Shown here piece by piece: positions 40,235 through 64,000 of a stretch of DNA of 64,000 bases. This stretch comes from Shewanella sp. OMA3-2. GTDB lineage: Bacteria > Pseudomonadota > Gammaproteobacteria > Enterobacterales > Shewanellaceae. How positions within the stretch are numbered: position 1 is the first letter of the stretch; each line of letters begins with the position of its first letter. A model generated the notes under the pieces. That model saw nothing but the letters and a program-made list of their open reading frames with translations. It did no database searches and was not told the DNA's origin. The position numbers and the translations under genes are program-made. The DNA is taken from positions 3,050,001 to 3,114,000 of the forward strand of contig NZ_CP090974.1 of NCBI RefSeq assembly GCF_021513195.1, in the 5' to 3' direction.

Positions 40235-41662
40235 ATGAGCAAATTAAGCGTATCACAACCGTCAGCAAATAAATCAATTATTGATTACGCATTTGACCGC
40301 CAACATATTTGGCATCCTTATACGTCAATGACTCATGCAATGCCGGTGCAGGGTGTGGTGTCAGCACAAGATTGTGAGCTAGTGCTAGAGAGTGGTCGTA
40401 AGTTAATTGATGGTACCAGCTCATGGTGGGCATGTGTTCACGGCTATGGTCATCCGCATATTGTGGCGGCGATGCAACAGCAACTTCATCAAATGAGCCA
40501 TGTGATGTTTGGCGGGATTACCCATCAACCCGCTATTGACGCCAGTAAGCTTTTAGTCGAGATGACGTGCGCTAAACTAACCAAGGTATTTTTAGCCGAT
40601 TCTGGCTCAATTGCGGTTGAAGTGGCATTAAAAATGGCACTGCAATACTGGCAAGGGCGTAATCAGCCGAATAAGCAAAAAATAATGACCGTTAAACGCG
40701 GTTATCACGGTGATACCTTTGCCGCCATGAGCGTATGCGACCCAGAAGGGGGTATGCACACTATGTTTGGCGACAACGTCACCCAGCAAATATTTATTGC
40801 GGCGCCGCAAACCCCGTTTGGTTTCAGTGCGGCATTAACGCCTCAATCGCAGTTAAATGAGCAAGGCTTATCCATAGAAGATGAGGTCGCTTTAGTCGAT
40901 GCTTTTGAAACTCACCATCAAGATGTTGCCGCGGTTATTATCGAACCCATAATGCAAGGCGCTGGCGGAATGCGCTTTTATTCCCCAGCCTATTTAACCC
41001 GATTACGTCAGCTATGCGATCAATTTAATGTCCTGCTTATACTCGATGAAATTGCTACAGGCTTTGGCCGCACTGGTAAATTGTTTGCCTATCAACATGC
41101 CAATATCGAACCCGACTTACTGTGCTTAGGTAAAGCGCTAACTGGCGGTTATATCAGCCTTGCGGCGACGATGTGCAGTGATGAAGTGGCGCAAGGCATT
41201 AGTGAATCCCCCGCCGGCGTGTTTATGCACGGACCAACGTTTATGGCTAATCCCCTCGCCTGTGCCGCGGCCACGGCCAGCTTGCAGCTCATCAATCAAC
41301 AGCAATGGCCTGCACAAATCAATATGATTGAAAAACAGATGATAGCTGAACTTGCTGCTGCGATTGAATATCAGCAGGTAAAAGATGTCAGGGTGTTAGG
41401 CGGTGTTGGTGTGATTGAAATGCTGCACCCCGTGAATAGCGCCCAATTACAACAAGCATTTATCGACCTAGGCGTTTGGGTAAGGCCCTTTAGCAATTTA
41501 ATTTACATTATGCCGCCCTACGCCATTGGCTCAGCCCAATTAAGTCAATTGACCAAAGCGATGAAACAGGTTGCCGCCAGTATTATAGAACCGCAAAAAG
41601 AAGCACCGCAAATGGCCGCGTCGCAAAAAAACATTAAGAAGGCATTTATTAGCCATGGGTAA
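40235..41662 (+). CDS. bioA: Adenosylmethionine-8-amino-7-oxononanoate aminotransferase
   Basis: Class III aminotransferase that uses SAM as amino donor to make DAPA. The PLP lysine is in LLCLGKALTGGYISLAA, and LILDEIATGFGRTG precedes it; the N-terminus has HIWHPYTSM. 475 residues, longer than E. coli (about 429) because of a C-terminal tail after KQVAAS that is rich in Gln, Ala and Lys. It overlaps apbE by eight bases. Confidence 0.95.
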   Translation: MSKLSVSQPSANKSIIDYAFDRQHIWHPYTSMTHAMPVQGVVSAQDCELVLESGRKLIDGTSSWWACVHGYGHPHIVAAMQQQLHQMSHVMFGGITHQPAIDASKLLVEMTCAKLTKVFLADSGSIAVEVALKMALQYWQGRNQPNKQKIMTVKRGYHGDTFAAMSVCDPEGGMHTMFGDNVTQQIFIAAPQTPFGFSAALTPQSQLNEQGLSIEDEVALVDAFETHHQDVAAVIIEPIMQGAGGMRFYSPAYLTRLRQLCDQFNVLLILDEIATGFGRTGKLFAYQHANIEPDLLCLGKALTGGYISLAATMCSDEVAQGISESPAGVFMHGPTFMANPLACAAATASLQLINQQQWPAQINMIEKQMIAELAAAIEYQQVKDVRVLGGVGVIEMLHPVNSAQLQQAFIDLGVWVRPFSNLIYIMPPYAIGSAQLSQLTKAMKQVAASIIEPQKEAPQMAASQKNIKKAFISHG

Positions 41663-42632
41663 ATTTCGCTTATTAGTGGCTTTAATTTTGTTGTTCCCCC
41701 CTTTAGTTCAAGCTCAATGGCACCAAAAAAGCTTCCATGTTATGGGTACCCAAGCCCATGTTGAGTTCTGGTTAGCAGGCAGTCAAACCCAAGTAACTGC
41801 AGACAAGTTAATCAGTCAAGTTGAGCAAGAAATGCACCGTATTGATGAAGCCATGAGTCCCTATAAGAACACCAGTGAACTTAGCTTAGTTAATCGGCAC
41901 GCGGGGATCGAAGCGGTGATCATTAGCAAAGAGTTATTTGAGTTACTGCAAGATGCTGATAAAATTGCTAAATTAACCAAAGGTACATTTGATATCACCT
42001 ATGCCTCGGTCGGTTACCAATATGATTACCGGCAACACAAAAAACCCAGCCAAGCATTTATCGATAAAAATATCAGTGCCATTAATTATCATTCAGTACA
42101 ACTAGATACTGATAACTCATCAGTTTATTTTAATCACCCAGCGGTTAAAATAGATTTAGGCGGCATCGCCAAAGGTCATGCAGTTAAAAACTGCCTTACA
42201 ATACTTAAGCAAGCCGGTATTAAACACGCATTGGTGAGCGCTGGCGGTGATACCGGCCTACTGGGTGATAGACGCGGCAGACCCTGGTATGTTGGCATTA
42301 AACATCCAAGGGCAGATGATAAAACCGCAGTTCAGTTACCCCTTAGTAATGAAGCCATTTCAACCTCAGGTGATTACGAGCGCTACTTTATTGAAGATGG
42401 CGTGCGCTACCATCACATTATCAACCCTAAAACCGGTGATTCTGCCCGTTATGTGGTTAGCGTATCAATTATCGGCAAAAATCCCACCTACGTAGATGCG
42501 CTTTCAACCGCCATTTTTGTCAAAGGCTTACAACAAGGCATGGCACTGATCAATCAACTCCCCGAATACGAAGCTATCATTATTGACAATCAGCAAACGT
42601 TGCATTTTTCAGAAGGGCTACAGCAAGATTAG
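41655..42632 (+). CDS. apbE: FAD:protein FMN transferase, exported
   Basis: ApbE attaches FMN covalently to Thr or Ser of extracytoplasmic redox proteins. The signal peptide (MGKFRLLVALILLFPPLVQA) has no lipobox. Family motifs are MGTQAHVEFW, IDLGGIAKGHAV, ALVSAGGDTGLLG and HIINPKTGDSAR. 325 residues. The start overlaps the end of bioA, so it is probably translated from the bioA message, an odd pairing. No protein in this window shows an obvious FMN-attachment motif, so its target is elsewhere or atypical. Confidence 0.92.
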   Translation: MGKFRLLVALILLFPPLVQAQWHQKSFHVMGTQAHVEFWLAGSQTQVTADKLISQVEQEMHRIDEAMSPYKNTSELSLVNRHAGIEAVIISKELFELLQDADKIAKLTKGTFDITYASVGYQYDYRQHKKPSQAFIDKNISAINYHSVQLDTDNSSVYFNHPAVKIDLGGIAKGHAVKNCLTILKQAGIKHALVSAGGDTGLLGDRRGRPWYVGIKHPRADDKTAVQLPLSNEAISTSGDYERYFIEDGVRYHHIINPKTGDSARYVVSVSIIGKNPTYVDALSTAIFVKGLQQGMALINQLPEYEAIIIDNQQTLHFSEGLQQD

Positions 42633-42934: not shown

Positions 42935-44512
42935 CTACACGATAGGCTGAAACGCGGTCAACGAATCCAACATAGTGGCATTACCTAAACCTTGTCTTGG
43001 GGCGACACGATTAAACTGGCTTTGTTCACCGTGTAACGCCATATAGTTAAGCAATACGGTTTCAACTAGCAAGTTAACATTATTGGCCGACGGTGCTGAT
43101 GCAGTGTCAACAGAAGCATCGGTTCGCATAAAACCAATTTGTTGTTTTCTGGCCATTTGCTCTGCATTAGCACCCATTAATTGCGGCTTGCCAGCAGGGT
43201 TAAATACTAAGAAAAACGCCGCGCCTGTTGATGAGTTATCACCCGTCCACTCGCCTTTACCGCGACCTTCCTGTGAGTCATCAATACGGCCATTACTGGC
43301 AACCGAACCATCACTGAATACATATAGCATTAACGGCATATTGCGACGGGCGGCATATTCTAAACAGGCGCCCATACAACGTCCTGCGCGCAAATCTCTT
43401 AATTCTCCGGTGGCACGATCGCCAGTGTGATAGTCAAAACCGCCCATGGTGACTGTACCCGCACCCGAAAATCCATTCACAACCAGTTTCATAATTGAAG
43501 CCGTTTTTTGAAACTCAGATTCTGAATCAAACTCATTGATATTAAAAATACCACTTGGACCAACAATATCTGGGTCAAGTAACGGGTTTAACGTTGACGG
43601 ATCACCAAAACGATCCGCTAAATCAGCGCTTTTAACATAACCACAATTAACCAAATCTTTAATCACATCGTCACGGGTTACTTGAGTATTAACCTGCGCC
43701 ATTTTCTGCGCGCTAACCCGTTGAATACTTTCCATTACGGTCACCGCATCACGTTGAGATAACAGGCTAAACAAGTCACCTACATCAACCAATCCAGTGA
43801 CATCTGAAGGACGGTCAATTTTCGTTGGTCGTTTACTCAGATCAATAAAGTTAGCAGCTGACATTGAATTGCCACCCGAGTCGGTATTGCGCGTGCCTAT
43901 TAGCGGCATTAACGAACCATTTGCTCCTGCTGCAGCAATGGCATACATAGGATTATGTGGATTATTACCGGTGTCGTTATCAGATCGGTTTGGAATAACT
44001 GCACCATTAATTCTTGATGCGGTATCTGTAGATACTTTTTCAAGAATGCCTCGTAAAAAGGCTGAGTCAGAATGAAATGCCAAACCTAAGTCAGTGTTAA
44101 TAAAATCAGACATGCCTGCATTCGGGTTGGCAATAGACGGTGCCATATCCCCAGGCAGCCCTAATTTGTTATACCCTGCTGTCGATAAAAAATCTTGTTG
44201 CCCACCGGCTCCGCCCACTAGCACATTAGATCCCGCTATATTGGCGCCACCAGCTAAGTCAAAGCTAATAAATGGAATTTTACCCGCACCTTGGACGCTA
44301 ATGCCGCAGGAGTCTCTTAGGGCTTCTAAATCTGGTGATAATGTCGCGTTAGCGTTATTAGGGTTAGCAAATAAGCTAAATAACGATAATCCAGCCACCG
44401 CAGCGCCACCTTTACATAAACCAGTAGAAATAAACTCACGTCGGGTTAATGGCTTGCGGTGATCGGCAAACAGCAAAGGACTATCTGGATGAAGGTGTTT
44501 AGGTTTACTCAT
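42935..44512 (-). CDS. Tat-exported DUF1501-like protein
   Basis: An N-terminal twin-arginine signal (PLTRREFISTGLCKGGAAVAG, starting near residue 20) predicts folded export. The mature part resembles DUF1501 proteins in overall plan (FISFDLAGGANIAGSN near the start, MGGFDYHTGDRATGELRD in the C-terminal half, and a late PLMLYVFSDGSVASNGRIDD), but the match is by eye and tentative. No haem motif. The ATG at 44512 follows AAGGAA, while the one at 44563 does not have a site. Last gene of a three-gene operon with two haem proteins. Function unknown. Confidence 0.7.
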   Translation of the reverse strand: MSKPKHLHPDSPLLFADHRKPLTRREFISTGLCKGGAAVAGLSLFSLFANPNNANATLSPDLEALRDSCGISVQGAGKIPFISFDLAGGANIAGSNVLVGGAGGQQDFLSTAGYNKLGLPGDMAPSIANPNAGMSDFINTDLGLAFHSDSAFLRGILEKVSTDTASRINGAVIPNRSDNDTGNNPHNPMYAIAAAGANGSLMPLIGTRNTDSGGNSMSAANFIDLSKRPTKIDRPSDVTGLVDVGDLFSLLSQRDAVTVMESIQRVSAQKMAQVNTQVTRDDVIKDLVNCGYVKSADLADRFGDPSTLNPLLDPDIVGPSGIFNINEFDSESEFQKTASIMKLVVNGFSGAGTVTMGGFDYHTGDRATGELRDLRAGRCMGACLEYAARRNMPLMLYVFSDGSVASNGRIDDSQEGRGKGEWTGDNSSTGAAFFLVFNPAGKPQLMGANAEQMARKQQIGFMRTDASVDTASAPSANNVNLLVETVLLNYMALHGEQSQFNRVAPRQGLGNATMLDSLTAFQPIV

Positions 44513-44598
44513 GGTCAGTTCCTTGTGCTTGCACATCTGGTGCTTGATTAAAAATAGTGACAATGAAACATGATTTGAACGATTTCATGTTCATCCTC

Positions 44599-47037
44599 CT
44601 ACTGCACCAGCATAACGGCACTTGCTAACACTGCGGTACAACTGGCTTTAGCAATAGTTTGAGTTCGCTCTGCATCACAGTTTGTTGCGCACACTGACAA
44701 GTTGCTCACTAGGTTATCAAGTTCGTTATACACCCCCACTGTATTTGGCTGATTAGCCAGGTTAAGGGGCATTAATTGTGTTATCAAAGGGCTCAGTAAC
44801 TTGCTTCGCTCAGCAGAACTTAATGCCACACTAGGCGGAGAACTAAAGTCCACATTAGGGAACCAGGCACTGCGTATTACGTTGTCTGTTATAGCGGTAT
44901 CACAGTAGGCAATGGCCATTTGAGTGATGCCCATTTGTTGCGCTGAAATAAAGGTTTCAATGTTTTCAATACTCGGCAATTGGCGTTTCACCAACTGATA
45001 GGTATTGAACACCTTAGATGACTTAGGATCGACCCCCGTAAGCACACTCATGGTGTGATTAATTTCAGCGAAGTTACGCATACCTATTTGAGCAGACTGA
45101 GTGGTTGCGGGTACTTCTTCGGGAAATATTATCACCCCAGGAATAACCACATTTTCATGCTCACCCAGTTTCTCAAAAGTAAGGAAAAACTCATCCTGAC
45201 TGGCGCCTTTTTCAAGCGCAACAAGAGTACCCAAAGAGGATATAGAAAACGGCTCAGCGATTTCTTGGCCTGCTTCAATCGTCAAATCCAGATTCATATA
45301 AGCCTGACCATTAGGGCTTTCTTTACCGTTAATACCCAGGCGGAGCCCCTTAAGCGGAAATCCATCACCGACTGGTACACCATCAATATTAACAAGCGAT
45401 GCACCGCTAAATAGGTAACTGTAATTGTCAAATTGACTGACCTCAAACATCACATAGGTATTAGGCAAATCGATTAGATGACTGATCGCAAAAAGTAAAA
45501 AGAACTTTTCACCGACACCAACATCATAATTTTGCAGCACCTGTGCAGGTTCTAGTACGCGGTTATAAAGTGCCAGTAGGCGAATATCCCCTTGCCATAC
45601 ATGCTGATTTGACGCTTCACGACCTAAAATTAATGCAAAGCTGTCATCCCAATTGGCTAACGGGGCAATATCTTCGTCAATAACATTGATTAAGCGACCA
45701 TTGACGTAAATTTTACGCCCTTCATTAGCCTTATAAGTCATCACCACATGTTGCAATGTAGCTTGCAATACTTCGGCCGCATCAGGAGTACTTAATGCAG
45801 GTTCTCCATTAGCACTTGAACTTTCAGTGCGCAGCATAAAATCATAATTATACTGAGTTTGGCCTAAGGTAAAGTTGCGCTCATTATCACCTGCAGAATA
45901 GGTCACAATACGCGCAGGCCCTTGTTGAACCACATTACTGGGAGTCACCCAGGCTTCAATTGAAAACTCACCTGTTGCTGTCATCAAGTCATGCAATTTT
46001 TTACTATTCGTTGTACTGGCCTGTGCTTTACCATTGTTAAACGATAAACCCCAGCTACCAAGCCACTCAATATCACCGCTTAAACTAAGATTAGCCGCGG
46101 GTGAAATTCCTGATGTGTCATAGGCAATGTTGCCCTCACCGGTTTTAAACTGGTATAAAGCAATCACGCCAGTCTCAAAACGGCCACCACTTGATGCGGT
46201 AATACCGTCAGTTAACCGCAGCGATTTGGACACCACCATATCCGCTGAAATAACATCAAGCGGAATTGCATCACTTAGTGCGGTAATGGCATCACGCATT
46301 TCAATACTGTTTGCCTGACAATTGTCCCAACAATTATGGAACTCACTGCCTAAACGCACCACTAAACGTGACTGAGCGGGCTCATCTAAGTTGATAACAC
46401 GTTTGGCCGCTTCATAAGCTTGGGCAACATCATTACTGGCAAAAAACGGCGATTGAGCTAGCGGAGCACTTTGATCATGGCACTGCGAACAATACTGGTT
46501 AACAATTGGGTAAACATGTTGGCTAAATAAACTGCTGTCATCTGGAAAGCTTTTACTTGTACCAGGTTCACGAATAACTGGCGCGGTAAGTTCAATGGTA
46601 TTTGCCGTACTCACCCGATCGTCCGCCCACAACTTAATCCACTGAGTCATGGTTTCACCACAAGCGGCATCACTGGCTAACCAGCAATTATGCCCGCCAG
46701 CTACTTTGTCTGCTAAGCGCGACTTTTGAGGTTCAGATAAATCAACCAGAGGATGAGTTGCCGCATAGGCGTCATTAACATTATTACGGCTGGCAAAGTA
46801 AGGCGCTTGTTTACCTTCCGTATGACAAGCACCACACTTATCCTGGGTTGAAATATTGTCCCAAAGTGAGACTTTGTATTTTTGAATATCTTCAGTGGCG
46901 GCCGCAGGACCTGTATAGACATCCGATTGAGGGTCTTGAGTTTTAGGGGGATTGGTTTCTACATCGCCACCGCCACAAGCTGTTAGCATCAGTAAAAATG
47001 AGAAAATAATCGAGGTTTTCATTAATAAGTGCTTCAC
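44599..47037 (-). CDS. Di-haem lipoprotein with LamG-like domain
   Basis: Predicted outer-membrane-attached lipoprotein (lipobox LTAC near residue 21). Two c-type haem motifs, CGACH and CSQCH, lie in the first 180 or so residues, each in a similar repeat (ACHTEGKQAPYFASRNNVNDAY, and CHDQSAPLAQSPFFASNDVAQAY, read as paired blocks). Residues about 290-510 form a concanavalin/LamG-like region (SIEAWVTPSNVV, HVVMTYKANEGRKIYVNG). The rest is unassigned. Start: GTG at 47037, because GGGAG lies five bases before it; the ATG at 47022 lacks a site. About 812 residues. Confidence 0.75.
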   Translation of the reverse strand: MKHLLMKTSIIFSFLLMLTACGGGDVETNPPKTQDPQSDVYTGPAAATEDIQKYKVSLWDNISTQDKCGACHTEGKQAPYFASRNNVNDAYAATHPLVDLSEPQKSRLADKVAGGHNCWLASDAACGETMTQWIKLWADDRVSTANTIELTAPVIREPGTSKSFPDDSSLFSQHVYPIVNQYCSQCHDQSAPLAQSPFFASNDVAQAYEAAKRVINLDEPAQSRLVVRLGSEFHNCWDNCQANSIEMRDAITALSDAIPLDVISADMVVSKSLRLTDGITASSGGRFETGVIALYQFKTGEGNIAYDTSGISPAANLSLSGDIEWLGSWGLSFNNGKAQASTTNSKKLHDLMTATGEFSIEAWVTPSNVVQQGPARIVTYSAGDNERNFTLGQTQYNYDFMLRTESSSANGEPALSTPDAAEVLQATLQHVVMTYKANEGRKIYVNGRLINVIDEDIAPLANWDDSFALILGREASNQHVWQGDIRLLALYNRVLEPAQVLQNYDVGVGEKFFLLFAISHLIDLPNTYVMFEVSQFDNYSYLFSGASLVNIDGVPVGDGFPLKGLRLGINGKESPNGQAYMNLDLTIEAGQEIAEPFSISSLGTLVALEKGASQDEFFLTFEKLGEHENVVIPGVIIFPEEVPATTQSAQIGMRNFAEINHTMSVLTGVDPKSSKVFNTYQLVKRQLPSIENIETFISAQQMGITQMAIAYCDTAITDNVIRSAWFPNVDFSSPPSVALSSAERSKLLSPLITQLMPLNLANQPNTVGVYNELDNLVSNLSVCATNCDAERTQTIAKASCTAVLASAVMLVQ

Positions 47038-47039
47038 CG

Positions 47040-48311
47040 TTACTCTCCCATACAATAATTGCCAACTTCAGCAAATACCCGCTTTAGTTGATAAGCATTC
47101 TGTTTAAAAGAGGCGGTAGTCGCATTGATTTGTGATAAATCAGCTTGGCTTTCAGCATCGCGTAAACACACTGTTTTAAATACTTTTTTCACCTGGCATT
47201 GGGCAAATGCTTGGCTATTAGCTAATTCTTGCCCCAATGATTTTGCTCCCGTACCTTGACCCGCTAAGCTATTATCCCAACCAAGTTTTTGGTTTGAGCC
47301 TTGGCGCCAATAGTTTTTCCATTGATCATTTGGGGTGACATAACCGTACGGAAAACTAGTGGCATTGAAATGGTATTTAGCTTGCACACGGCTGCCGGTA
47401 CTGGCATCTACCTGGCCACTACTGTTGTAAGCCAATTTTCCAGCATTACCCTCGGGATCGGTCTCTAAGTTAAATTGATAATCATAATAGGCAAACGCTT
47501 GCGCAAGCGGATCCATCCCCGTATGACAACCAGAGCAATTGTTAATAAACAAACGGCTATCACCACCAGGGCTGCGGCTAACATCTTGACGAATTCTATC
47601 GGTAGATAAGGTGTTGTCTTTTAATGGCTCTAGGTCAGTACATAAGTGATTCATTAAGGTAAATCGTAACATGGCGCGATTAGTCCCTAAATAAAAGAAG
47701 GCCTTTGCCGCAGCACGACTGGTTAACACGCCCGCTGTGGCGTCGCTAGGTAAACCATTAATACTAGATTGGCTGGTGCGTTCTAAGCCCTGCTTTAAAT
47801 CAATAAATTGATCTTCAAGCGCTTGGTAATGTGAATTGTTATTAACGTTATAGGCAGGTAAACCTAGGCTACTTTTTCCCACATAAACCATGTCAGATTG
47901 CAAAATATCTCTAAAATCAACATCATCTCTGACAGCACCAATGACTGTGGCAGAGTAATCGTTGAGGGGCTCAAAGCTATCTTGATCTATGTTGGTCCAA
48001 GGTGTGGCGAATAGTTTTAAGGTGGTGGAATAGAATGCTGGGGTTTCCATAGCTAAATAGGCTGCTTCTAGGGTTTTGCCTTCATCAAGTAAAGCAGCCA
48101 TATCTTGTAACGTTTGTTGTGACGCTGCCACACCGGCGATACGGTCATGCAGCTGTTTAGCTTGTTCAAGTGTCCCTGCACCGGCATTGGTACAGTGAAA
48201 AGCCATTAAACAAATCATAAAGGGGCAGACTAATATTTTACGGCCGCAAAATTTAAGGCCATATTTGCCAGCTAAAATCAGCCTATTTAGTCTATAACAT
48301 CGCGCCTTCAT
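47040..48311 (-). CDS. Exported mono-haem protein, DUF1588-like
   Basis: N-terminal hydrophobic segment (ILVCPFMICLMAFHCTNAGAG) predicts export. One c-type haem motif lies in INNCSGCHTGMDPLAQAFAYYD; this CH-x-MDP pattern resembles the DUF1588 family found in planctomycete-type cytochrome/DUF1501 modules. 423 residues. AAGGAGA five bases before the ATG is a strong ribosome site. First gene of the minus-strand operon: its stop is two bases before the next start. Substrate unknown. Confidence 0.7.
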   Translation of the reverse strand: MKARCYRLNRLILAGKYGLKFCGRKILVCPFMICLMAFHCTNAGAGTLEQAKQLHDRIAGVAASQQTLQDMAALLDEGKTLEAAYLAMETPAFYSTTLKLFATPWTNIDQDSFEPLNDYSATVIGAVRDDVDFRDILQSDMVYVGKSSLGLPAYNVNNNSHYQALEDQFIDLKQGLERTSQSSINGLPSDATAGVLTSRAAAKAFFYLGTNRAMLRFTLMNHLCTDLEPLKDNTLSTDRIRQDVSRSPGGDSRLFINNCSGCHTGMDPLAQAFAYYDYQFNLETDPEGNAGKLAYNSSGQVDASTGSRVQAKYHFNATSFPYGYVTPNDQWKNYWRQGSNQKLGWDNSLAGQGTGAKSLGQELANSQAFAQCQVKKVFKTVCLRDAESQADLSQINATTASFKQNAYQLKRVFAEVGNYCMGE

Positions 48312-48670
48312 ACTGTCTCCTTGTCATTTATGTAAATTAACAATCGCCAGAAGAAACAGCATTTCACCTTAGACTGATTTATGACGGGTAATGCAAAATC
48401 AGTAAAGCAGATTGTTTTTATTATTTAAGCCAATAACCTCAATGACTACTTATTCACAATTTACGCATTTATATTCAAAGTGGTATTAAACCACTAATGC
48501 AACCAAATTGTTACAACCGCGATAATACTTCTCAACAAGGTAAATAAAAAGGATTAATTTTATTTTAACAAAAGTGTTGAAACAAATAGGTATGACAGCA
48601 ATAATACACAAAAGGTAAACAAGTCCACCCAATGACAATAACAATAATAGCACATCATTAAGGGATACGA
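48312..48670. promoter_or_regulatory. Divergent control region between the two haem operons
   Basis: AT-rich 359-base region that must hold both promoters. The most regular element is an operator-like palindrome AGTGGT-ATTAA-ACCACT at 48479-48495. I could not assign promoter boxes with confidence. Confidence 0.45.
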
Positions 48671-51330
48671 ATGAGGCCGAAATTAGGCTATAAATTTGTG
48701 GTTTTTTCAGTATTTAGCTTACTTTTAGGTTGTAATACTGATACTACAATCAAAGACGAAAAGCCTGATCCTGTGTTAGTTGAGTACCCTATTGTCTACA
48801 TCCAACGCGATCTAATCAGCGCTGAAAATGAAGCACCACAATTTGATGTTTTTGATCCTGCTCATTTTAATCCGGTGCCAATTTATTGACAAAGCGTAAT
48901 GCGTTTGCCGATTCACCTCCATTCAGTTTAACTGCATCTTTATTTAAATCAGACCAACTTGTTGATATCAGAGATCTATCCGTTTCAGATAACGGCCAAC
49001 AATTATTAATGTCGATGAAAGTACAAAAAGTTGACGCCAATGAAGATGAACAAACTTCGTGGAATATTTGGCACTATGACCTCACCACTAAAAAATTATC
49101 TAGGGTAATGGCCAATGACGCCTTAGCCGAGCAAGGCAACGATTTAATGCCGTCATTTCTACCCGATGGCCGTATCGTGTTTGCCTCAACCAGACAACGC
49201 TTATCACGGGCAATTTTACTGGATGAAGGTAAACCACAGTACACAGCATTAGATGAAAACAGGGATAATGAAACCTTTAATATTCATGTCATGAACCCAG
49301 ATGGTTCGGCAATTAAGCAACTCAGCTTTAATTTAAGCCACGACTTTTACCCTTTAGTGATGCAAAACGGCCAGATTTTGTATAGCCGATGGGACCTGAT
49401 GGGGGCAAATCACGGCATTAATTTGTATCGAATGAACCCAGACGGCACCAATAATGAACTCGTTTTTGGTTGGCATTCACATCAAATTATCCTCGATTCA
49501 CAAACTGAGGTAGTGGAATATATTAAGCCACAGCAGTTACCCAGTGGCGAAATTTTGATGATGTTAACTTCACGAACAGATTCAACAGCCATTAACAAGC
49601 GCCCTGTTACCATAAACATAAACGACTATATTGATGCCAACCAAGCGACCGCAACATCTGGGGCACAAGATAATGCGATAAATGATGTTGTTTTAGCTGA
49701 CTTTGATTTTAATTTTTCTCAAGGCTTGTCGCCTACAGGCCGAATTAATCATCTATTTCCTATTCCAGATAACAGTAATCGTTATTTGATGAGCTGGGAT
49801 TTATGCCGAGTGGTTATCAATGACCAAATTAAATCTTGCGGTCAATTAACCCAAGCACAACTTGCTGATGAAAATATAGTACTTGCCCCTGCATTTTATG
49901 AATTATGGTTATTAGACAATGCCAATAAAACGCAACAACTTGTGGCAACAACAGAGCAAGGCAAAATATTAACCGAAGCTGTGGTGATGCAACCATCAGC
50001 ACAACCTAAAACCTTTATTGCTGACAAAGTAGTGGGCAATGAATTAGATGCGCAGTTATCGCTAGAACTTGCTGGCAGTATTCATATCCGTAGCGTGTAT
50101 GATTTTGATGGCATTGATAGCACAGCAAACATCGGCGGCATTACTCGCCTAAGCGATCCATCAAAAACTCCTGCGGCAAACTTACCGGCTCGATTTTTAC
50201 GTATTGTTCGTGGCGTACCTATGCCGCCCGATGACGTTCGCGATGTGGCTAATACTGATTTTGGTCGCAGTAATAATCAATTAATGCGTGAAATTATTGG
50301 CTATACCCCAATCCAACCTGACGGTTCAGTTAAAATTAAAGTGCCCGCTAATGTGCCACTGGCTATCAGCGTATTAGATATGAATGGTAAACGAATTGGC
50401 GGACGACATCGTCAATGGATAAGCCTAAAACCAGGCGAAACACTAGAGTGTACTGGCTGTCATACTGCCAATAGTCAATTACCCCATGGTCGCACCGATG
50501 CTCAGGTCACTAGTATCAATACTGGTGCAGCCGCTGGCGGAAGTCCTTACCCAAATGCCAGCGCAAACATCATTCCGTCTCAGGGGCAAACGATGGCTGA
50601 AGCGGATGAAATGGTTAATGGATTACCGCAATTAACTGCCGATCTTCGCTATCAAGACATTTGGACCAACCCAGCCATTTCCGCCATCAATCCTGCGCTA
50701 GAATATGCCTATAGCAATATGCAAACCTTGGCGCCAAATGGTGCCGAGTGTTTTACCCATTGGACCACCTATTGCCGTTTGCAGATAAATTATGTTGAAC
50801 ATATACAGCCTCTTTGGGATTTACCTCGCCCTGTCATCGATGAAGCGACACAAGTTGTGGTAGCTAATAGCACCTGTACAACTTGCCACAATATGATTAA
50901 CCAAGATGGCGTATCGCAAGTACCCGCGGGGCAATTAGCACTATCAAACATGCCATCAAGTGATCAAGTGGCGCATTTAACCAGTTACCGCGAGTTATTT
51001 TTCAACGACGTTGAACAAGAGGAAATCGATGGCATTATTATCGACAGACTGATAGAAGTACTCGATGCAGAGGGTAACCCCGTTTATCAAGTTGACAGCA
51101 ACGGTGAGCTAATTTTAGATGCCGAAGGTAACCCGATTCCAGTGTTAACCACGGTCAATGTACCGGCCATTTTATCCACTAATGGCGCAAGGGCGAGCAG
51201 TAACTTTTTCGATGTAATGAATAACGCAACTCATCAAAATATGTTAACTAAAGATGAACTTAAGTTATTAAATGAATGGTTAGATATTGGCGCACAATAT
51301 TACAACACGCCTTTTTATCCACTGCCATAA
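48671..51330 (+). pseudogene. Di-haem lipoprotein of the hydrazine-synthase-alpha-like (WD40/TolB + cytochrome) family, frameshifted as read by one missing G
   Basis: The first 72 codons give a lipoprotein signal (SLLLGC) and the domain opening YPIVYIQRDL, then stop at 48889. The rest is in the next frame. Adding one G to the GG at 48874-48875 gives FNPGANLLTKRNAF, matching the FNPGADLY pattern of the family, and an 886-residue protein. A beta-propeller-like region (LPDGRIVFASTRQR, HVMNPDGSAIKQLS, YRMNPDGTNNELVF) is followed by haem motifs CTGCH and CTTCH. In anammox bacteria the related domain is in hydrazine synthase; here the chemistry is unknown. AAGGGAT precedes the ATG. Confidence 0.8.
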
Positions 51331-51414
51331 TCATCGTAAACTAACACAATAATGCGGCAAGCATAAAAACAGGTATGCGTAGTTGGCTTCATGGAATAAT
51401 AACAATAGGGATTT

Positions 51415-52173
51415 ATGTTTAAGTTAATGTTTAAACACTTTAAAAATACACTCTGCTTATTGGCACTCGTTTGTTTAAGCCCTGCTGCGTTAGCTGAAAC
51501 ATCACCCGAAGCCACCTTGCGTATTGAGGTGCCTTTTATTGAGTTACATTCAGGCCCAAGCGCAGGCTATCCTGTAGTGTCAATTGTCGAAAAAAATGAA
51601 CTGGTCACCTTATTGATAAAACGCACTACCTGGATAAAAGTTAAAAACAAACGCGGTATTGAAGGCTGGTTCCATGAAGATGCCTTACTCAGTTTGTCTA
51701 AAGATGGCCAAGCTATTACTCAAAACCAGATCAGCCAGCAAGATGTGATACACCGTGATATTGAAGCCGGCGTTATGTACGGTGATTTAGAAGGTGCTAA
51801 CTTTTATAATATCTATGGCGGCTATGCCTTTACTCCTGTTTTCAGTGTCGAACTATCGGCAGGTAAAGCATTGGGGAGTATTTCAGACAGCGACATTTTT
51901 GAAATAATGTTAATGAGTCAGCCTTTACCCGACCTGATTGTTATTCCTTATCTTGGTGTAGGCGCAGGCCTTATTAGCACTAAACCCCACAGCGTTATTG
52001 CCGATTCAGAAGATCGTGAAAGTACATTGATGAGCGGCGCGGTTGGCATTAAATATCACATAGCACGTAACTTTTTAGTTCGGGCTGAATATAAACTCTC
52101 GTTAGCGTTAACAGATCGAGATGAAAATGAAGAGATCCAAACATGGAAAATAGGATTCAGCGTATTTTTTTAA
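51415..52173 (+). CDS. Outer-membrane beta-barrel protein with N-terminal SH3 domain
   Basis: Signal peptide ending SPAALAET, then a bacterial SH3 domain at about residues 32-92 (VPFIELHSGPSAGYPVVSIV, GIEGWFHEDAL), then a barrel-like half with alternating hydrophobics and a terminal aromatic (KIGFSVFF). 252 residues. Such SH3-plus-barrel proteins may bind peptidoglycan or a partner on the periplasmic side. Overlaps the next gene by 31 bases. Confidence 0.72.
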   Translation: MFKLMFKHFKNTLCLLALVCLSPAALAETSPEATLRIEVPFIELHSGPSAGYPVVSIVEKNELVTLLIKRTTWIKVKNKRGIEGWFHEDALLSLSKDGQAITQNQISQQDVIHRDIEAGVMYGDLEGANFYNIYGGYAFTPVFSVELSAGKALGSISDSDIFEIMLMSQPLPDLIVIPYLGVGAGLISTKPHSVIADSEDRESTLMSGAVGIKYHIARNFLVRAEYKLSLALTDRDENEEIQTWKIGFSVFF

Positions 52174-52814
52174 TGCCGTTATTTAGCGTCAGCGCGCTGA
52201 CCTTAGGCATATTAACCATAAGCGCCCCGACTTTTGCAGCAGAAGCGGAAGTTAACTCAACCGTTGCGGTTAAAGCCAATGTAGAACGTCGCGACGTAGT
52301 AGAGGATTTACTTGATACTGAAAACTTTGAAGTGGGTATTCAAGGCGGGATCATGTCAATTGAAGACTTTGAATCGAGTCCTTGGGTAAGTGCGCACCTG
52401 GGTTATCACATCAGTGAGCACTTTTATGTCAAAGCCAACTATGCTCAAGCTAAAGCCGGTGAAACCAGTTTTGAAAAGTTAGCTAACGCCGCACCATTAT
52501 TGACCGATGCCGAGCGCGAGTTAACCTATTACGGTTTAAATATTGGCTATACCCTGCTGCCTGGAGAAATATTTTTTAGCAAAGATAGGGTATTTAACAG
52601 TGCTTTCTCATTCGAATTAGGTGGTGGTAGCACTGAATTTGCTGGTGATGAACAGTTCACGGTAAATTTAACCGCAAATTATCGGGTATTTCTAACCGAC
52701 TGGTTAGCATGGGACTTAAGCATGAGCGATTACCTGTTTAATACCGAAGTGACCGGGTCGTCAAAAACAACCCATAACTTAACCTTTGCTACCGGTGTAG
52801 CATTTTATTTTTAA
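52143..52814 (+). CDS. Small outer-membrane beta-barrel protein
   Basis: Signal peptide ending APTFAAEA, followed by beta strands such as VSAHLGYHISEHFYVKANYA and FSFELGGGSTEFAG and a terminal Phe (TGVAFYF), the usual Bam signal. 223 residues, OmpA/OmpW-like size. The ATG at 52143 has GAGAT upstream but lies inside the previous gene; an ATG at 52173 on the previous stop is an alternative. Function unknown; probably paired with the SH3 barrel protein. Confidence 0.72.
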   Translation: MENRIQRIFLMPLFSVSALTLGILTISAPTFAAEAEVNSTVAVKANVERRDVVEDLLDTENFEVGIQGGIMSIEDFESSPWVSAHLGYHISEHFYVKANYAQAKAGETSFEKLANAAPLLTDAERELTYYGLNIGYTLLPGEIFFSKDRVFNSAFSFELGGGSTEFAGDEQFTVNLTANYRVFLTDWLAWDLSMSDYLFNTEVTGSSKTTHNLTFATGVAFYF

Positions 52815-52876
52815 AGTAGTAACACCGTCAGCTCAGTTTATAAAGAGCCGCTAAAAAAATGAAAAAGGATAATTAA

Positions 52877-53380
52877 ATGTTGTTGAACAAACTGGGATAT
52901 AAAAGCCTGCTTGCCGCGTTGGCACTATTAATGTCCATTAACGCCCAAGCCTTGACCGTAGGCGACATAGCTCCTGATTTTACCTTGAAGAATATGCAAG
53001 GCAACAACCTCAATTTAGCTGAGCAACGCGGTGAAATTATTGTAATTAACTTTTGGGCATCCTGGTGTGGACCGTGCCGTAAAGAAATGCCGGTGCTGCA
53101 AAAACTACAAGATAAGTATCAAGATTTAGGTGTGCAAGTTTGGGGCATAAATGTTGAGCAAGAAAACCAAGCAGGCAAAGACTTTTTAGCCGATTTAGAT
53201 TTAAGCTTTTCTATCTTTTTTGATCAAACCAATGCTTTATCTAAAAGCTACCAAGTAGAAGCAATGCCCACCACCGTCATTATCGATCGCGACGGTATAG
53301 TACGTTTTATGTTTCGCGGCTATAAAGATGGTTATGAGAAAAAATACGCCGATGCGATTAAAAAGCTGATCAGAGAATAA
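52877..53380 (+). CDS. Periplasmic TlpA/ResA-like thioredoxin
   Basis: Signal peptide ending INAQA, then a thioredoxin fold with VINFWASWCGPCRKEMP; the active site is CGPC near residue 64. The cis-Pro segment is EAMPTTVIIDRDG. 167 residues. AAAGGAT precedes the ATG. A reductant of this class beside haem and Cys-rich lipoprotein genes suggests thiol maintenance of CxxCH or of the DUF4266 Cys tail. It is followed immediately by the DUF4266 gene. Confidence 0.88.
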   Translation: MLLNKLGYKSLLAALALLMSINAQALTVGDIAPDFTLKNMQGNNLNLAEQRGEIIVINFWASWCGPCRKEMPVLQKLQDKYQDLGVQVWGINVEQENQAGKDFLADLDLSFSIFFDQTNALSKSYQVEAMPTTVIIDRDGIVRFMFRGYKDGYEKKYADAIKKLIRE

Positions 53381-53383
53381 GTG

Positions 53384-53662
53384 ATGAAGATTAAATACAT
53401 AACAGGCTTACCTACTGCGAATAAGCCTCTAAGCACGCTGACAGTGACTATAGCAACACTTAGCTTACTCAGTTTAAGTGGCTGTTCAAGTTTGAACATT
53501 GAGCCCTGGGTTAAACCCTATGAAAGGCAAAACCTGGCTGATCCCATTATGCGCTTAAACCGTCATCCCAGCGCAAGCATGCATATGGCACACGTACTAG
53601 AAGGACGCGAATCGTCCCGTGGCGCTGAAGGCACCGGAGGAGGGGGTTGTGGTTGTAACTAA
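53384..53662 (+). CDS. DUF4266 lipoprotein ending in GGGGCGCN
   Basis: Lipoprotein signal with lipobox LSGC near residue 35, then the DUF4266 pattern VKPYERQNLADPIMRL and the conserved tail RGAEGTGGGGCGCN. 92 residues. In many bacteria DUF4266, DUF3570, TlpA and ApbE genes occur together, from memory, and here three are contiguous with ApbE about 11 kb away. The ATG at 53384 is preferred over the GTG one codon earlier. Its last codons double as the ribosome site for the next gene. Confidence 0.85.
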   Translation: MKIKYITGLPTANKPLSTLTVTIATLSLLSLSGCSSLNIEPWVKPYERQNLADPIMRLNRHPSASMHMAHVLEGRESSRGAEGTGGGGCGCN

Positions 53663-54821
53663 TCGAGTAAATCCATTCTTACGCCCAGGCTTATTTTTCT
53701 TGCTCAGCCTAGGTCTATTACTGAGCCTAGTTGGCTTGGTATCACATGCCGCCATTATTGACCCTGATAGAGTCGATGTGCTTTATCACAGCTATGAAGG
53801 GGGTGGAATGAAAATTGACGGCCCTTCTATTTTACTGCGAAAAAAAGCCTCAGAATCTGTTGCCGTTACCGCCTATTATTATCTAGACAGTATTTCATCG
53901 GCCTCTGTTGATGTTATCAGTACCGCCAGCCCATACACAGAAGAACGCAACGAAGGTCAATTAGGCATTGAGTATCTTCGCGATAAAACCATGATGTCAT
54001 TTAACATACGTCAAAGTGATGAGGATGATTATTTAGCTCAATCCTTTAGCGTTAATGTGTCGCAAGACACGTTTGGTGACTTAACCAATCTCAATATGGG
54101 CTTATCATTTGGCGATAATGAAATTCGACGTAACGGCGATGAACTATTTGAAGAACAAAGCCAGCAATATCGCATTCGTGCAGGCATTAGCCAAATCATT
54201 ACCCGTAACCTCACCACCAGTTTAAATGTCGAAGCCATTGCCGATAGCGGTTATCTTAATAACCCTTATCGAACGGTGCGATATATAGACAGTAGTATTC
54301 CATCAGGGGTGGGCTACCAAGCAGAAATTTACCCTGAAACCCGTAACTCCTTTGCCGCAAAATTAACCGCCAGTTACTTTTTACCCTATCGCGCCGCATT
54401 GTTTGCCCATTATCGCCATTTTACCGACAGCTGGGAAATTCAAGCCAGTGATGTCGAGTTAGGTTATCGCCATCCCATTGGTGATTATCTCGAGCTGGAA
54501 TTAAAAGTGCGCTACTACCAACAAACCCAAGCTGAATTTTATAGCGACTTATTCCCCTATCGCGATGCACAAAACTATATGGCGCGGGACAAAGAGCTCA
54601 GTGACTTTAACGACATAACTTACGGCTTAGGGGTAACCTATTTTTTACCCGCCTCACTATCCTTTGGTGAAACACGCTCAGAAGCGACATTACAATGGGA
54701 TTATATTGATTTTGATTATCAAAACTTCAGAGATCCAACTGCTGAAGGCGGCGTAGGAAATGAGCCATTTTACGGTTTTTCAGCCAACGTAATACGCGCA
54801 TTTGTCAGTGTCTATTTTTAA
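53649..54821 (+). CDS. DUF3570 outer-membrane beta-barrel protein
   Basis: After a hydrophobic leader (FFLLSLGLLLSLVGLVSHA) the sequence has long alternating strands, the DUF3570 opening DRVDVLYHSYEGGGMKIDGP and a terminal Phe (FVSVYF). 390 residues. The start is a GTG at 53649, inside the end of the DUF4266 gene, because GAGGAGGGGG lies just upstream; a frame extension to 53619 lacks a site. It is likely the outer-membrane partner of the DUF4266 lipoprotein. Function unknown. Confidence 0.82.
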   Translation: MVVTNRVNPFLRPGLFFLLSLGLLLSLVGLVSHAAIIDPDRVDVLYHSYEGGGMKIDGPSILLRKKASESVAVTAYYYLDSISSASVDVISTASPYTEERNEGQLGIEYLRDKTMMSFNIRQSDEDDYLAQSFSVNVSQDTFGDLTNLNMGLSFGDNEIRRNGDELFEEQSQQYRIRAGISQIITRNLTTSLNVEAIADSGYLNNPYRTVRYIDSSIPSGVGYQAEIYPETRNSFAAKLTASYFLPYRAALFAHYRHFTDSWEIQASDVELGYRHPIGDYLELELKVRYYQQTQAEFYSDLFPYRDAQNYMARDKELSDFNDITYGLGVTYFLPASLSFGETRSEATLQWDYIDFDYQNFRDPTAEGGVGNEPFYGFSANVIRAFVSVYF

Positions 54822-54940
54822 CGCGCTAAGTATACAAAGTAGCACCTGACAGGCGCTAATATTAATAACGATTTCGCTCAGTAAGCATATTGCATGTTAA
54901 GCGACCCTATATTCAAACGGAACTGCCAAGGCTTTTTGAT

Positions 54941-55492
54941 ATGACTCAAGCTCACTTTTATCACGTCGCGTTAACTCGTTTTTTTAGCGTATGCTTACTG
55001 GTTTTAGGAATGACTACACATGCCATACCAGTTAATGCTGAAGAAGCCCCCTTAGCCACAGAGCTTGAAAATATTAAAAGCCAAGTCCTTAAGCTCAATC
55101 GTGATTTATTTATTTTAGAGGAAGATTTACTGTTCCCAGCCAGCACCCAAATAGCCGTGTTTGTCTCTGTCGATGTTGGCCGTTTTATGACACTAGACAG
55201 TGTCGAACTGAAAATTAATGATGATAACGTCTCCGGCACCTTGTATACCGAGCGCCAACGTAAAGCCTTAGAGCAAGGTGGTATTCAGCGGGTGTATTTA
55301 GGCAATCTTAAAATGGGACAACATCAACTAACGGCCATATTTACCGGTACTGACGCTGAAGGACGAACCGTACAGCGCGCTGTTAACCATAACTTTGAAA
55401 AAACCGACGAAACTGTAATGATTGAGCTGAAGCTAGAAGATAACCAGTCCAACTATCGCGCCGAGATTAAAGTCGAACAATGGGTGTTGTAG
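54941..55492 (+). CDS. Conserved periplasmic protein, function unknown
   Basis: Signal peptide (FFSVCLLVLGMTTHAIPVNA), a short predicted coiled coil (ENIKSQVLKLNRDLFILEED) and a beta-rich remainder (LDSVELKINDDNVSGTLY, LKMGQHQLTAIFTGTD). The ATG at 54941 with AAGG upstream is taken (183 residues) over a TTG at 54890. No DNA-binding motif is visible, so any regulator annotation inherited from homologues would be wrong. It links the DUF3570 gene to the TPR genes. Confidence 0.65.
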   Translation: MTQAHFYHVALTRFFSVCLLVLGMTTHAIPVNAEEAPLATELENIKSQVLKLNRDLFILEEDLLFPASTQIAVFVSVDVGRFMTLDSVELKINDDNVSGTLYTERQRKALEQGGIQRVYLGNLKMGQHQLTAIFTGTDAEGRTVQRAVNHNFEKTDETVMIELKLEDNQSNYRAEIKVEQWVL

Positions 55493-55568
55493 TCAAAGTG
55501 CTTTAGCAGACATTTTGTAACATGGTTTTTGTAAAAGAGGTTTCGTTACATGGATTTTGCAACCAACA

Positions 55569-57719
55569 ATGACTTTTAAACTGATATTTTCAACTAAATG
55601 GCTTAATTTATCAGGCCAACCTTTTAGCTTACTTGCGCTAAGGTGTGTCTGCGCGCTGGGGCTGGGCTGCCTGTTATTCACACAAGTAAGCATGGCACAA
55701 ACTGAATCACCTCCTCCACAGCCTGTGCTATCCACTAAAACCGCATTAGAGGATAAACTGTACCGCCAAGCACTGTATTTTTACTTTGCCGGCGATTACG
55801 CTGCGGCGCTAAGACAAATTAGTTTAAACCAGCAGCGTCATCAACTTACATCATTAAGAAGTGATTTATTCGAAGCCGGTCTGCAAATCAATTTAGGTCT
55901 TCATAGCCAAGCGGCGGCAACCCTATTATCGTTTGAACAAACTCAGGCTAGTCACCATCAGGACAATTCAATCGATGATAACAATTCACAAAAAGCCAAA
56001 TCATCAACATCTCCTACTGAGCTATTACTGATAGCCTTATTACAACTCAGTGAACAACAAATTGAGCAAGGCGATAATCAAGCTGCCCAGCAAACCCTTG
56101 CCAAAATCCAGCAGGTACAAGCTGAATACGTTCATCAATACCAAGTGCTTAACCAACTAGCATACTGGCCAAACGCCCCACTAATGACAGCAAAGTTGGC
56201 CAAGCCAGACAAAGATAATCAAGCCTTTGACAATTTATCAGCTGCTTATATTGGCCTCAATAATGCGCTGCTACACATGCAACAAAATGAATTTCAATTA
56301 GCTAAGCCCATTTTAAGCCAATTAAAAAATCAATCCTGGCAGTCCCCTCAACAAACCTTTTGGCAACTGTTGTTTAATCCATTTTCAACTGATCAATATC
56401 ACAGCCTTGATAGTCAGGGCAATGTGAGTCATGACAAACAGCGCCAACAGCTAGCGGTTAACGATTACGCCAAATTATTACTGGCACAAATGTATGTTAT
56501 GCAGCAGCAATATGACACCGCCTTTACAGAGCTGGCTAACTTTCCTCAACACAGTCCATACACGGAATCCGCCCTGTACTTATTTGCCTTTGCAGCACAA
56601 AATGCGGGCCAATATGATAGCGCATTTAATTTACTCGATTTAGTTCAACAACAATACCCATACTCTCACCTAGGCTGGCAAGCTGCACTATTAAGTGCCA
56701 CCCAAGTTACTCAGCAACAGTCGCTTGGGCAAGGTATGGCCCGTTATCAACAAGCCGAGCAATTATACTTAGATAGAATTGCCGACTTAGCCACCTTTAA
56801 ACAAACATTCTTAGCAGCAAGTGATGTCGCCAGTTTTACCCTAGTGAGTAAAAATATCACTCAGTCAGCCGGTAACGCTTCACAGCAGCACAAGTCACAA
56901 CAATCACTTGAATTATTAACCCATACCGCCTTTACCACCCAATCTAAGTGGTTAAAAAAAGCCTTACTTAATGCACCTTTAGCAAACGATTATCAAACCG
57001 TGTTAACCCTTGATTTATTAAATGGTAACCTGGGTAATCAACGCAGTAAAAGTGATTGGTTAAAACAGACAATAGGGCTAAATAAGCAACGTCAACACAG
57101 TGTGATTGAAAGGCAACAGCAAACCCCTTATGGCGAATTAGTCGCCCAGCTGAAGCAGCAAGAACAAGCTGTATCACAAATCATTACCGCAGCAGAAAAA
57201 CAACAAAATGGCCAAGCCTTTGCAAGCCAAACTGAGCAACAGTGGTTACAGCGTATTGCGCAAAGCCAACTCACCATTAATACCTTATCTGGCCAACGCG
57301 ATATGAGTGATTATCAGCAGCGACTGGCTAAAGTATCTGGGGTATTACGCTGGCAATTACAACGGGACTTTGCCGACAGACTATGGCAACACCAAAAAAG
57401 CCTGCAACAACTCAAGCAGCAACTCAATTCACTTGAGGCGCAATCTGAGCGCTTTAATGCCTTGTCTGCTTCGCCACGGGTTTACGCTGACTTTGATAGT
57501 CGTCAACAAATGAATGAGGCAGAAATTAACCAGTTAACCTTAGCGATTAAACAGCTGCGAGTTAAAACCAGTGGTGATATTCGTCAAAAAGTGACAGTAT
57601 TTGTCGATCAACAACAGCAAGAGTTAGCACGATTACTACTCATCACGCGTCATGAAATGGCGGCAGTATTAGAACAAATGGCACAAGCTGACACCTTGCC
57701 TATGCAGGGAGATCAATAA
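55569..57719 (+). CDS. Exported TPR-like helical protein
   Basis: Signal peptide ending VSMAQ, then about 670 mostly helical, Gln- and Ala-rich residues with TPR-like pairs (LYRQALYFYFAGDYAAALRQ, ESALYLFAFAAQNAGQYDSA). The last 200 residues are strongly coiled-coil in character. The start is uncertain: the ATG at 55569 or a TTG four codons earlier; neither has a strong site. Its stop overlaps the next start. Likely a periplasmic scaffold. Confidence 0.7.
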   Translation: MTFKLIFSTKWLNLSGQPFSLLALRCVCALGLGCLLFTQVSMAQTESPPPQPVLSTKTALEDKLYRQALYFYFAGDYAAALRQISLNQQRHQLTSLRSDLFEAGLQINLGLHSQAAATLLSFEQTQASHHQDNSIDDNNSQKAKSSTSPTELLLIALLQLSEQQIEQGDNQAAQQTLAKIQQVQAEYVHQYQVLNQLAYWPNAPLMTAKLAKPDKDNQAFDNLSAAYIGLNNALLHMQQNEFQLAKPILSQLKNQSWQSPQQTFWQLLFNPFSTDQYHSLDSQGNVSHDKQRQQLAVNDYAKLLLAQMYVMQQQYDTAFTELANFPQHSPYTESALYLFAFAAQNAGQYDSAFNLLDLVQQQYPYSHLGWQAALLSATQVTQQQSLGQGMARYQQAEQLYLDRIADLATFKQTFLAASDVASFTLVSKNITQSAGNASQQHKSQQSLELLTHTAFTTQSKWLKKALLNAPLANDYQTVLTLDLLNGNLGNQRSKSDWLKQTIGLNKQRQHSVIERQQQTPYGELVAQLKQQEQAVSQIITAAEKQQNGQAFASQTEQQWLQRIAQSQLTINTLSGQRDMSDYQQRLAKVSGVLRWQLQRDFADRLWQHQKSLQQLKQQLNSLEAQSERFNALSASPRVYADFDSRQQMNEAEINQLTLAIKQLRVKTSGDIRQKVTVFVDQQQQELARLLLITRHEMAAVLEQMAQADTLPMQGDQ

Positions 57720-61685: not shown

Positions 61686-62050
61686 TGAACAATGCATTTT
61701 TATTACAACTTTACTTGGTGGCAATGCTTTTTTCTGTAAGTGCAATGGCAGCTGGCAAAATCGATGCAAATGCTCAAACTACGGTGACAAAATCAACGCA
61801 AGCTGAACCAACACAGAAAATAAGTGCAGCCAAAACGAACCAGCCAGTGTTAATTGAAAGTAAGGTCACCGGATCGCAAGAGCAACCCAAGGTGCTTTAC
61901 ATCATGCCGTGGCAAGGGATCACTAATCCGATTAGTGTTGATAATAACGACATGAAGCTTGCCCTGCCCCAATTTAAACCGATCCACCCTAAAGTGTTTC
62001 AGCAGCAAGTAAGAGACTTTACCGCGCCAATCGAAACCAATACAAAATAG
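61685..62050 (+). CDS. Small exported protein, function unknown
   Basis: Signal peptide (LYLVAMLFSVSAMAA) followed by about 100 polar residues with few hydrophobics. The segment VLYIMPWQGITNPISVDNND is the most structured-looking part. Start overlaps the previous stop. I do not recognise a family; the position before exbB suggests a periplasmic accessory. Confidence 0.6.
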   Translation: MNNAFLLQLYLVAMLFSVSAMAAGKIDANAQTTVTKSTQAEPTQKISAAKTNQPVLIESKVTGSQEQPKVLYIMPWQGITNPISVDNNDMKLALPQFKPIHPKVFQQQVRDFTAPIETNTK

Positions 62051-63971: not shown

Positions 63972-63972
63972 T

Positions 63973-64000
63973 ATGACAGCAAACTCATCAAGTGCAAGCC
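63973..64000 (+). CDS. Start of a further gene of the motor operon (partial)
   Basis: ATG at 63973, one base after the exbD stop, opens a frame MTANSSSAS that runs off the window. By position it is likely a TonB-like or AgmX/PglI C-terminal-domain protein, but only nine residues are visible and this is inference. Confidence 0.45.

Follow-up and report, generated by a model that had tools for sequence, protein, structure and literature searches.

The Agl/Glt core complex, which includes aglR, Q and S and is related to the gliding motor of Myxococcus, was described for Gammaproteobacteria in 2011 and its function was unknown then (PMC3169522). In Myxococcus, the Agl-Nfs machine moves spore-coat polymer along the surface and needs proton-motive force (PMC3858216). 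For a second group of envelope genes, it has been reported that ApbE flavinylates Chlorobium DUF3570 at two [S/T]GA[S/T] sites and that clusters of ApbE, DUF3570, a thioredoxin-like protein and DUF4266 occur with and without DsbD (PMC8238504; here and below, these three papers are cited from excerpts). Here, we describe a locus of Shewanella sp. OMA3-2 in which both types of genes stand together with haem-motif proteins. The window, that is the whole stretch of DNA analysed, covers positions 3,050,001 to 3,114,000 of NZ_CP090974.1 (GCF_021513195.1; 64,000 nt). Gene content, conservation, linkage, motifs and predicted fold suggest that the locus probably encodes one multi-gene envelope system, namely a form of the Agl/Glt core complex of Gammaproteobacteria that is equipped with redox proteins.

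Gene content and comparison with described systems

The locus consists of two divergent gene runs. The minus run (42935-48311) encodes, in transcription order, a DUF1585/DUF1588-like protein (monohaem), a LamG lipoprotein (dihaem) and a protein exported by twin-arginine translocation (Tat). The plus run starts at 48671 with a dihaem lipoprotein resembling hydrazine synthase alpha (HzsA-like), followed by an SH3-barrel protein, an OMP_myx_plus barrel, TlpA, DUF4266 and DUF3570. The first-pass annotation had ended the cluster at 54821. We found that the plus run goes on with an exported protein of 200 aa, three TPR proteins, a protein of 121 aa, one TolQ-like protein and a pair of TolR-like ones. 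A TonB-like protein follows, with which the run passes the window end by about 1 kb; on the other side, an ApbE gene adjoins. The features are as follows:

41655..42632, plus: ApbE, FAD:protein FMN transferase, just outside the cluster as first noted (Pfam ApbE, 263 bits)
42935..44512, minus: Tat-exported protein, 525 aa, alkaline phosphatase/sulfatase-like predicted fold
44599..47055, minus: LamG-domain lipoprotein, two CxxCH (Laminin_G_3, 1.6e-21)
47040..48311, minus: DUF1585/DUF1588-like exported monohaem protein (weak profile match in the window)
48312..48670, no strand: divergent control region with a promoter-like site for the plus operon (48577-48605)
48671..48888, plus: lipoprotein leader of the HzsA-like gene, frame differs from the body (72-aa open reading frame matching the HzsA-like profile)
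48886..51330, plus: HzsA-like dihaem protein, body (HZS_alpha, 5.2e-17; PD40)
51415..52173, plus: SH3 domain and outer-membrane barrel (OMP_b-brl, SH3_3)
52143..52814, plus: OMP_myx_plus (TIGR04565) outer-membrane barrel (158.8 bits, cut-off 60)
52877..53380, plus: TlpA-like thioredoxin, WCGPC (profile match)
53381..53662, plus: DUF4266 lipoprotein, CGC tail (1.8e-21)
53619..54821, plus: DUF3570 barrel, variant flavin site SISSAS...STAS (8e-41)
54890..55492, plus: 200-aa exported protein that occurs with core complexes
55557..57719, plus: GltC-like TPR protein
57719..60850, plus: GltD-like TPR lipoprotein, 1043 aa
60837..61685, plus: GltE-like TPR lipoprotein, 282 aa (GltE model 27 bits, cut-off 225)
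61685..62050, plus: 121-aa exported protein
62231..62884, plus: AglR-like TolQ/ExbB proton-channel protein (MotA_ExbB, 3.8e-28)
62884..63441, plus: first TolR/ExbD-like subunit, Asn at the usual Asp place (ExbD, 1e-9)
63438..63971, plus: second TolR/ExbD-like subunit, Asp kept (ExbD, 6.4e-14)
63898..64000, plus: first part of the GltG-like TonB protein (listed with 366 aa), which extends roughly 1 kb beyond the window (L080, 8899-9999)

DUF4266 and DUF3570 overlap by 44 bases in different frames (53619-53662), at the tail of the former and the listed start of the latter. The promoter-like site upstream of the HzsA-like gene reads TTGAAA-17-AATAAT and stands out as conserved when 14 Shewanella intergenic regions are aligned, but in promoter and terminator scans the total number of sites was not above that of shuffled sequence.

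The genes downstream of DUF3570 match the core complex in kind and roughly in size, and a TolQ-like AglR and two TolR-like subunits stand in tandem. The locus shares with the core complex and with the Myxococcus Agl-Glt and Agl-Nfs systems, as these are described in the excerpts, the TolQ-like, two TolR-like and three TPR proteins and a GltG-like protein with an AgmX/PglI domain, all in one gene run (PMC3169522, PMC3858216). The most specific marker, the AgmX/PglI C-terminal domain, scored 58.7, 74.2 and 65.6 bits (cut-off 40) in all three GltG-like proteins tested, which did not reach the full GltG equivalog cut-off (650). When we compared the TolR-like subunits at what we take to be the proton-binding Asp place of TolR, the first subunit had Asn in 28/33 rows (the pattern fails in the other five) and the second had Asp in 31/34 (it fails in three). 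This pattern is alike in redox-linked and unlinked complexes, with the window gene counted twice. An alignment search with the GltC-like protein (7994 best candidates scored, 120 of 132 listed) gave no Myxococcus name among the named matches listed, which include S. gelidii and S. algicola.

Unlike the Agl/Glt systems, the locus adds TlpA, DUF4266, DUF3570, ApbE, haem proteins and the Tat protein. With the flavinylation clusters it shares DUF3570, the DUF4266 CxC tail, a thioredoxin-like protein and ApbE nearby; unlike those described in the excerpts of PMC8238504, its flavin site is mostly S-S-A-S and not S-G-A-S, and haem proteins and an Agl/Glt-type complex are joined to it. A word search of the main text of PMC3169522 found no redox, cytochrome, thioredoxin or Shewanella, and one of PMC8238504 no gliding, ExbB, TolQ, hydrazine or TPR. 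Among the open-access main texts inspected, no paper joined redox genes to the Agl/Glt core complex; DUF4266 and DUF3570 were found in PMC8238504 only, and TIGR04565 in none.

Co-occurrence and gene neighbourhood

In the genus, the Tat and HzsA-like proteins are present in the same 14 of 97 genomes, where they are divergent neighbours every time (one genome, G055, has one extra 40-residue Tat match), and the same divergent order was seen in 13 fetched Shewanella relatives. DUF4266 occurs in 64/97 Shewanella genomes, which is more than the cluster; the reason is a separate, canonical cluster located elsewhere, which has an ApbE of its own. This separate TlpA-DUF4266-DUF3570-ApbE cluster (L073-L079) was found in many Shewanella, some of which also hold the locus studied here.

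In a class sample of 274 gammaproteobacterial genomes, OMP_myx_plus was over its cut-off in 42 genomes from 28 families, DUF4266 was found in 66 and the Tat profile matched in 35. The GltC-like profile matched 193/274 genomes at E 0.001, mostly as generic TPR, and 52 reached 300 bits, a line chosen after viewing the list (4 candidates a genome scored). With this line, 41/42 genomes with the barrel carried a GltC-like protein vs 11/232 without it (2e-37; the exception, G172, has a 194-bit match). The corresponding values were 31/42 vs 4/232 for the Tat protein (2e-27) and 39/42 vs 27/232 for DUF4266 (6e-26). All p-values are from one-sided Fisher tests and are too strong because of shared ancestry. 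DUF4266 lies within 2.5 kb of 38/43 barrel genes; of the other five, one is on a contig of 3 kb (G163), for one the genome has DUF4266 on a different contig (G361) and for three it has none (G113, G152, G289).

For the gene neighbourhood, 40 barrel genes outside the window and the window itself gave 41 rows, leaving out G163:C345 and G289:C110 (the latter was fetched later, outside these counts). Open reading frames of all fetched loci were scored with profiles grown from the window proteins, and many of the 41 stretches were cut by contig ends or by the chosen flank. Here, we found the SH3-barrel in 40 rows, DUF3570 in 40, TlpA in 39, DUF4266 in 38, the HzsA-like protein in 31, the GltC-like protein in 23, the DUF1585-like and LamG proteins in 20 each and ApbE in 11. 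Of the 20 LamG rows, 4 had the Tat gene within the stretch first fetched; in the others, it was located further upstream (16/16).

For a second set, named genomes were scanned with the HzsA-like query and the 80 best loci listed were taken (Chromatiaceae, Thiodiazotropha and other symbionts, Kangiellaceae, Paraglaciecola, Woeseia and others); it overlaps the class sample in some genomes (G302:C66, G275:C113, G224:C1). Among loci with enough flank, DUF1585-like (59/59), LamG (59/59) and Tat genes (54/55) stood upstream of the HzsA-like gene. The loci with enough flank also held the SH3-barrel (56/56), OMP_myx_plus (55/56), DUF3570 (55/56), DUF4266 (54/56) and TlpA (49/56). A GltC-like gene was within the locus in 25/51 cases, either past the Tat gene or on the side of DUF3570. 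The first-pass annotation had raised the possibility that the two operons are rarely together; their sharing of the same Shewanella genomes and the 59/59 named loci speak otherwise. The 28 barrel families and the named loci of other families also rule out that the HzsA-like/Tat pairing is a Shewanella oddity. One further locus (L306, from G130) combines HzsA-like, DUF1585-like, LamG and Tat genes, and the barrel set is missing from the 20 kb that were fetched; in this genome, no OMP_myx_plus exceeds the cut-off and DUF4266 is absent.

Core complexes without the barrel, DUF4266 and DUF3570 in the fetched stretch were observed at L288-L293, L295-L299 and L301-L305; they contain the 200-aa protein, TPR proteins, TolQ/TolR/TolR and a GltG-like protein. 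Since 10/52 GltC-positive genomes of the class have no DUF4266, the core complex also exists without the redox module. Four genomes (G132, G160, G293, G302) carry an unlinked core complex besides the redox-linked locus. In a quick tree, the redox-linked GltD copies cluster (5 label changes vs 13.6 in shuffles).

Thiol, flavin and haem parts

The window holds DUF3570, DUF4266, a thioredoxin-like protein and ApbE together, which is the content of the flavinylation clusters. ApbE belongs to another gene run, at a distance of 0.3 kb from the Tat gene end and about 11 kb from DUF3570, and its orthologue adjoins the cluster in 10/14 Shewanella genomes, the window included. Three of the remaining four have contigs that break off no more than about 1 kb from the Tat gene, and the fourth (L064) has no ApbE in 4.2 kb. 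The DUF4266 tail reads GGGCGCN in 66/66 named relatives. Canonical Shewanella DUF3570 copies (L073-L077) carry SLTGAS or SLSGAS, and the window copy has SISSAS...STAS at the aligned place. Among cluster-type DUF3570 proteins, 115 keep D/E-x-x-[ST][GSA]A[ST] and four do not (some genomes counted twice); the protein is split in L066 and L145.

One of the four site-less copies is cut by a contig end (L294), and the other three (L173, L176, L287) are from G113, G152 and G289. These are the three barrel genomes without DUF4266, and only there was the flavin site lost. The pattern may be read as loss of the thiol parts together with the flavin parts, with barrel and motor genes left in place; at most two independent cases are involved, since G152 and G289 belong to one family. 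In G113, a TlpA-like gene still separates the barrel gene from DUF3570. That DUF4266 and the flavin site of DUF3570 are missing together predicts an electron path of TlpA, DUF4266 and flavin.

Counting of motifs gave five CxxCH over three proteins (two in the LamG lipoprotein, one in the DUF1585/DUF1588-like and two in the HzsA-like protein), exactly as first annotated, and the Tat substrate, the thioredoxin, the Cys-tailed lipoprotein and the outer-membrane barrels were also where they had been placed. These motifs are conserved. LamG relatives have two CxxCH in 20/21 rows (none in L169), and lipobox Cys27 and both motifs are invariant in 17/17; DUF1585-like relatives have one in 21/21, invariant in the alignment; HzsA-like relatives have two or three in 29/32, the exceptions being L154 and L174, which are cut by contig or fetch end, and L161 with CSQSQCH at the second place. 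The LamG reading frame as listed has an internal ATG 11 codons on, ahead of the lipoprotein signal. A PDB sequence search with the LamG family gave two sialidase chains near 0.01, and confidence of the LamG structure model was low (predicted template modelling score, pTM, 0.37). The DUF1585 profile matched 24/25 relatives at E 0.1 (best 1.5e-6), the window copy scoring 17.1 bits (cut-off 25.8). Planctomycete-type PSCyt/PSD haem proteins (PMC5615132) share the DUF1585/DUF1588-type domain and the LamG module; unlike there, the domains are on separate genes here and the adjacent Tat protein is not recognised as DUF1501.

The Tat protein had been called DUF1501-like. This assignment did not hold, since Pfam DUF1501 (PF07394) matched 0/33 family members at E 1 (and none in its own genome), which rules out a plain DUF1501 identity. 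The predicted fold is of the alkaline phosphatase/sulfatase superfamily type. The twin Arg is kept in 33/33 proteins, and D85, D360, H362, D401 and H494, candidate residues of a catalytic metal site, are invariant in 33/33. A PDB sequence search with the family gave 0 matches at E 1.

In the window copy, the HzsA-like gene has its leader in one frame and its body in another, and the 13 other Shewanella copies are single open frames of 888-928 codons. Thus, the window gene is either interrupted or affected by an assembly error. A second subtype (L166, L168, L170, L177, L180) has an HzsA-like protein with a third CxxCH in a C-terminal extension and ApbE adjacent, and no Tat, LamG or DUF1585-like genes in the fetched stretch.

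Possible mechanism and alternative explanations

Motor function, flavin attachment, haem binding and outer-membrane location are putative assignments made from the named families. The TolQ-like AglR and the two TolR-like subunits would use the proton gradient and drive GltG, the TPR proteins GltC, D and E and the outer-membrane barrels. ApbE would attach flavin to DUF3570. A redox relay at the outer membrane may involve a periplasmic donor, TlpA, the DUF4266 cysteine tail, flavin on DUF3570 and the HzsA-like, LamG and DUF1585-like haem proteins. Electrons would pass between TlpA, DUF4266, flavin and haem, and the direction of flow is a guess. The phosphatase/sulfatase-type Tat protein and the LamG domain hint at handling of a surface polymer; such a polymer as substrate is likewise guessed, and we regard it as rather doubtful. 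Slightly better placed, as a tentative proposal, is a proton-driven surface transporter whose outer-membrane cargo carries out haem, flavin and thiol chemistry on an extracellular polymer.

Several observations weigh against one redox-equipped Agl/Glt system. GltC, GltD and GltE were assigned by kind, size and order only; the GltE model gave 27 and 51 bits (cut-off 225), and other TPR models did equally well or better. The strict [S/T]GA[S/T] motif is absent from the window DUF3570, and only 15 of the 115 site-bearing cluster copies have the G, the remaining ones having S/T-[SA]-A-[ST] in its place. ApbE is inside the fetched locus in only 10/56 named loci, 11/42 barrel genomes are without the Tat protein, 26/51 named loci with enough flank have no GltC-like gene in reach, and in the quick tree the redox-linked GltD copies do not form one clade.

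Alternatively, the locus may serve respiratory or iron-reducing extracellular electron transfer, with the TolQ/TolR/TonB-like part only energising uptake or barrel gating and with no surface transport. The haem proteins in Shewanella relatives are in line with this, and according to the excerpts flavinylation is linked to iron reduction and 25 DUF3570 clusters carry an iron transporter (PMC8238504). However, there is no iron transporter or MtrCAB-like gene among the 21 listed parts, and the conserved partner is an Agl/Glt-type complex. Moreover, the haem proteins have one to three CxxCH each, which is few for a long electron wire. We consider this explanation unlikely. Still less probable is that the haem/flavin module and the core complex are neighbours that share a locus and not a function. 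That the core complex stands on either side or out of reach, and that unlinked second core complexes occur, would fit such an arrangement, but nearly all barrel genomes (41/42) have the GltC-like protein, though not always adjacent.

A hydrazine- or nitrogen-metabolising complex built on the HzsA-like protein is hardly credible: its family profile matches hydrazine synthase alpha (5c2v; E 1.1e-20), with propeller, middle and C-terminal domains aligning and CxxCH after the middle domain in both, but the window protein scores 46.2 bits against an equivalog cut-off of 800, which rules out hydrazine synthase identity, it differs in its lipoprotein leader and gene company, and none of the scanned cluster proteins was identified as a further hydrazine synthase subunit (no search for such subunits covered the rest of the genome).

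Taken together, the observation made in the first-pass annotation is real and its interpretation is partly supported. An extracytoplasmic redox system from periplasm to outer membrane agrees with the joint conservation of haem-motif, thioredoxin and flavin-site proteins over many families of Gammaproteobacteria, but the redox genes are only the front half of the locus, and the back half is an Agl/Glt-type core complex that would be driven by TolQR. A redox-equipped Agl/Glt system brings together two published orphans, the gammaproteobacterial core complex and the flavinylation set of DUF3570 and DUF4266, with haem proteins of planctomycete type in addition. If the tentative surface transporter with redox cargo is true, force and electron transfer would be united in a single machine that spans the envelope. 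The function of the core complex would become testable in cultivable Shewanella, and a long-unexplained machine would gain a testable chemical role.

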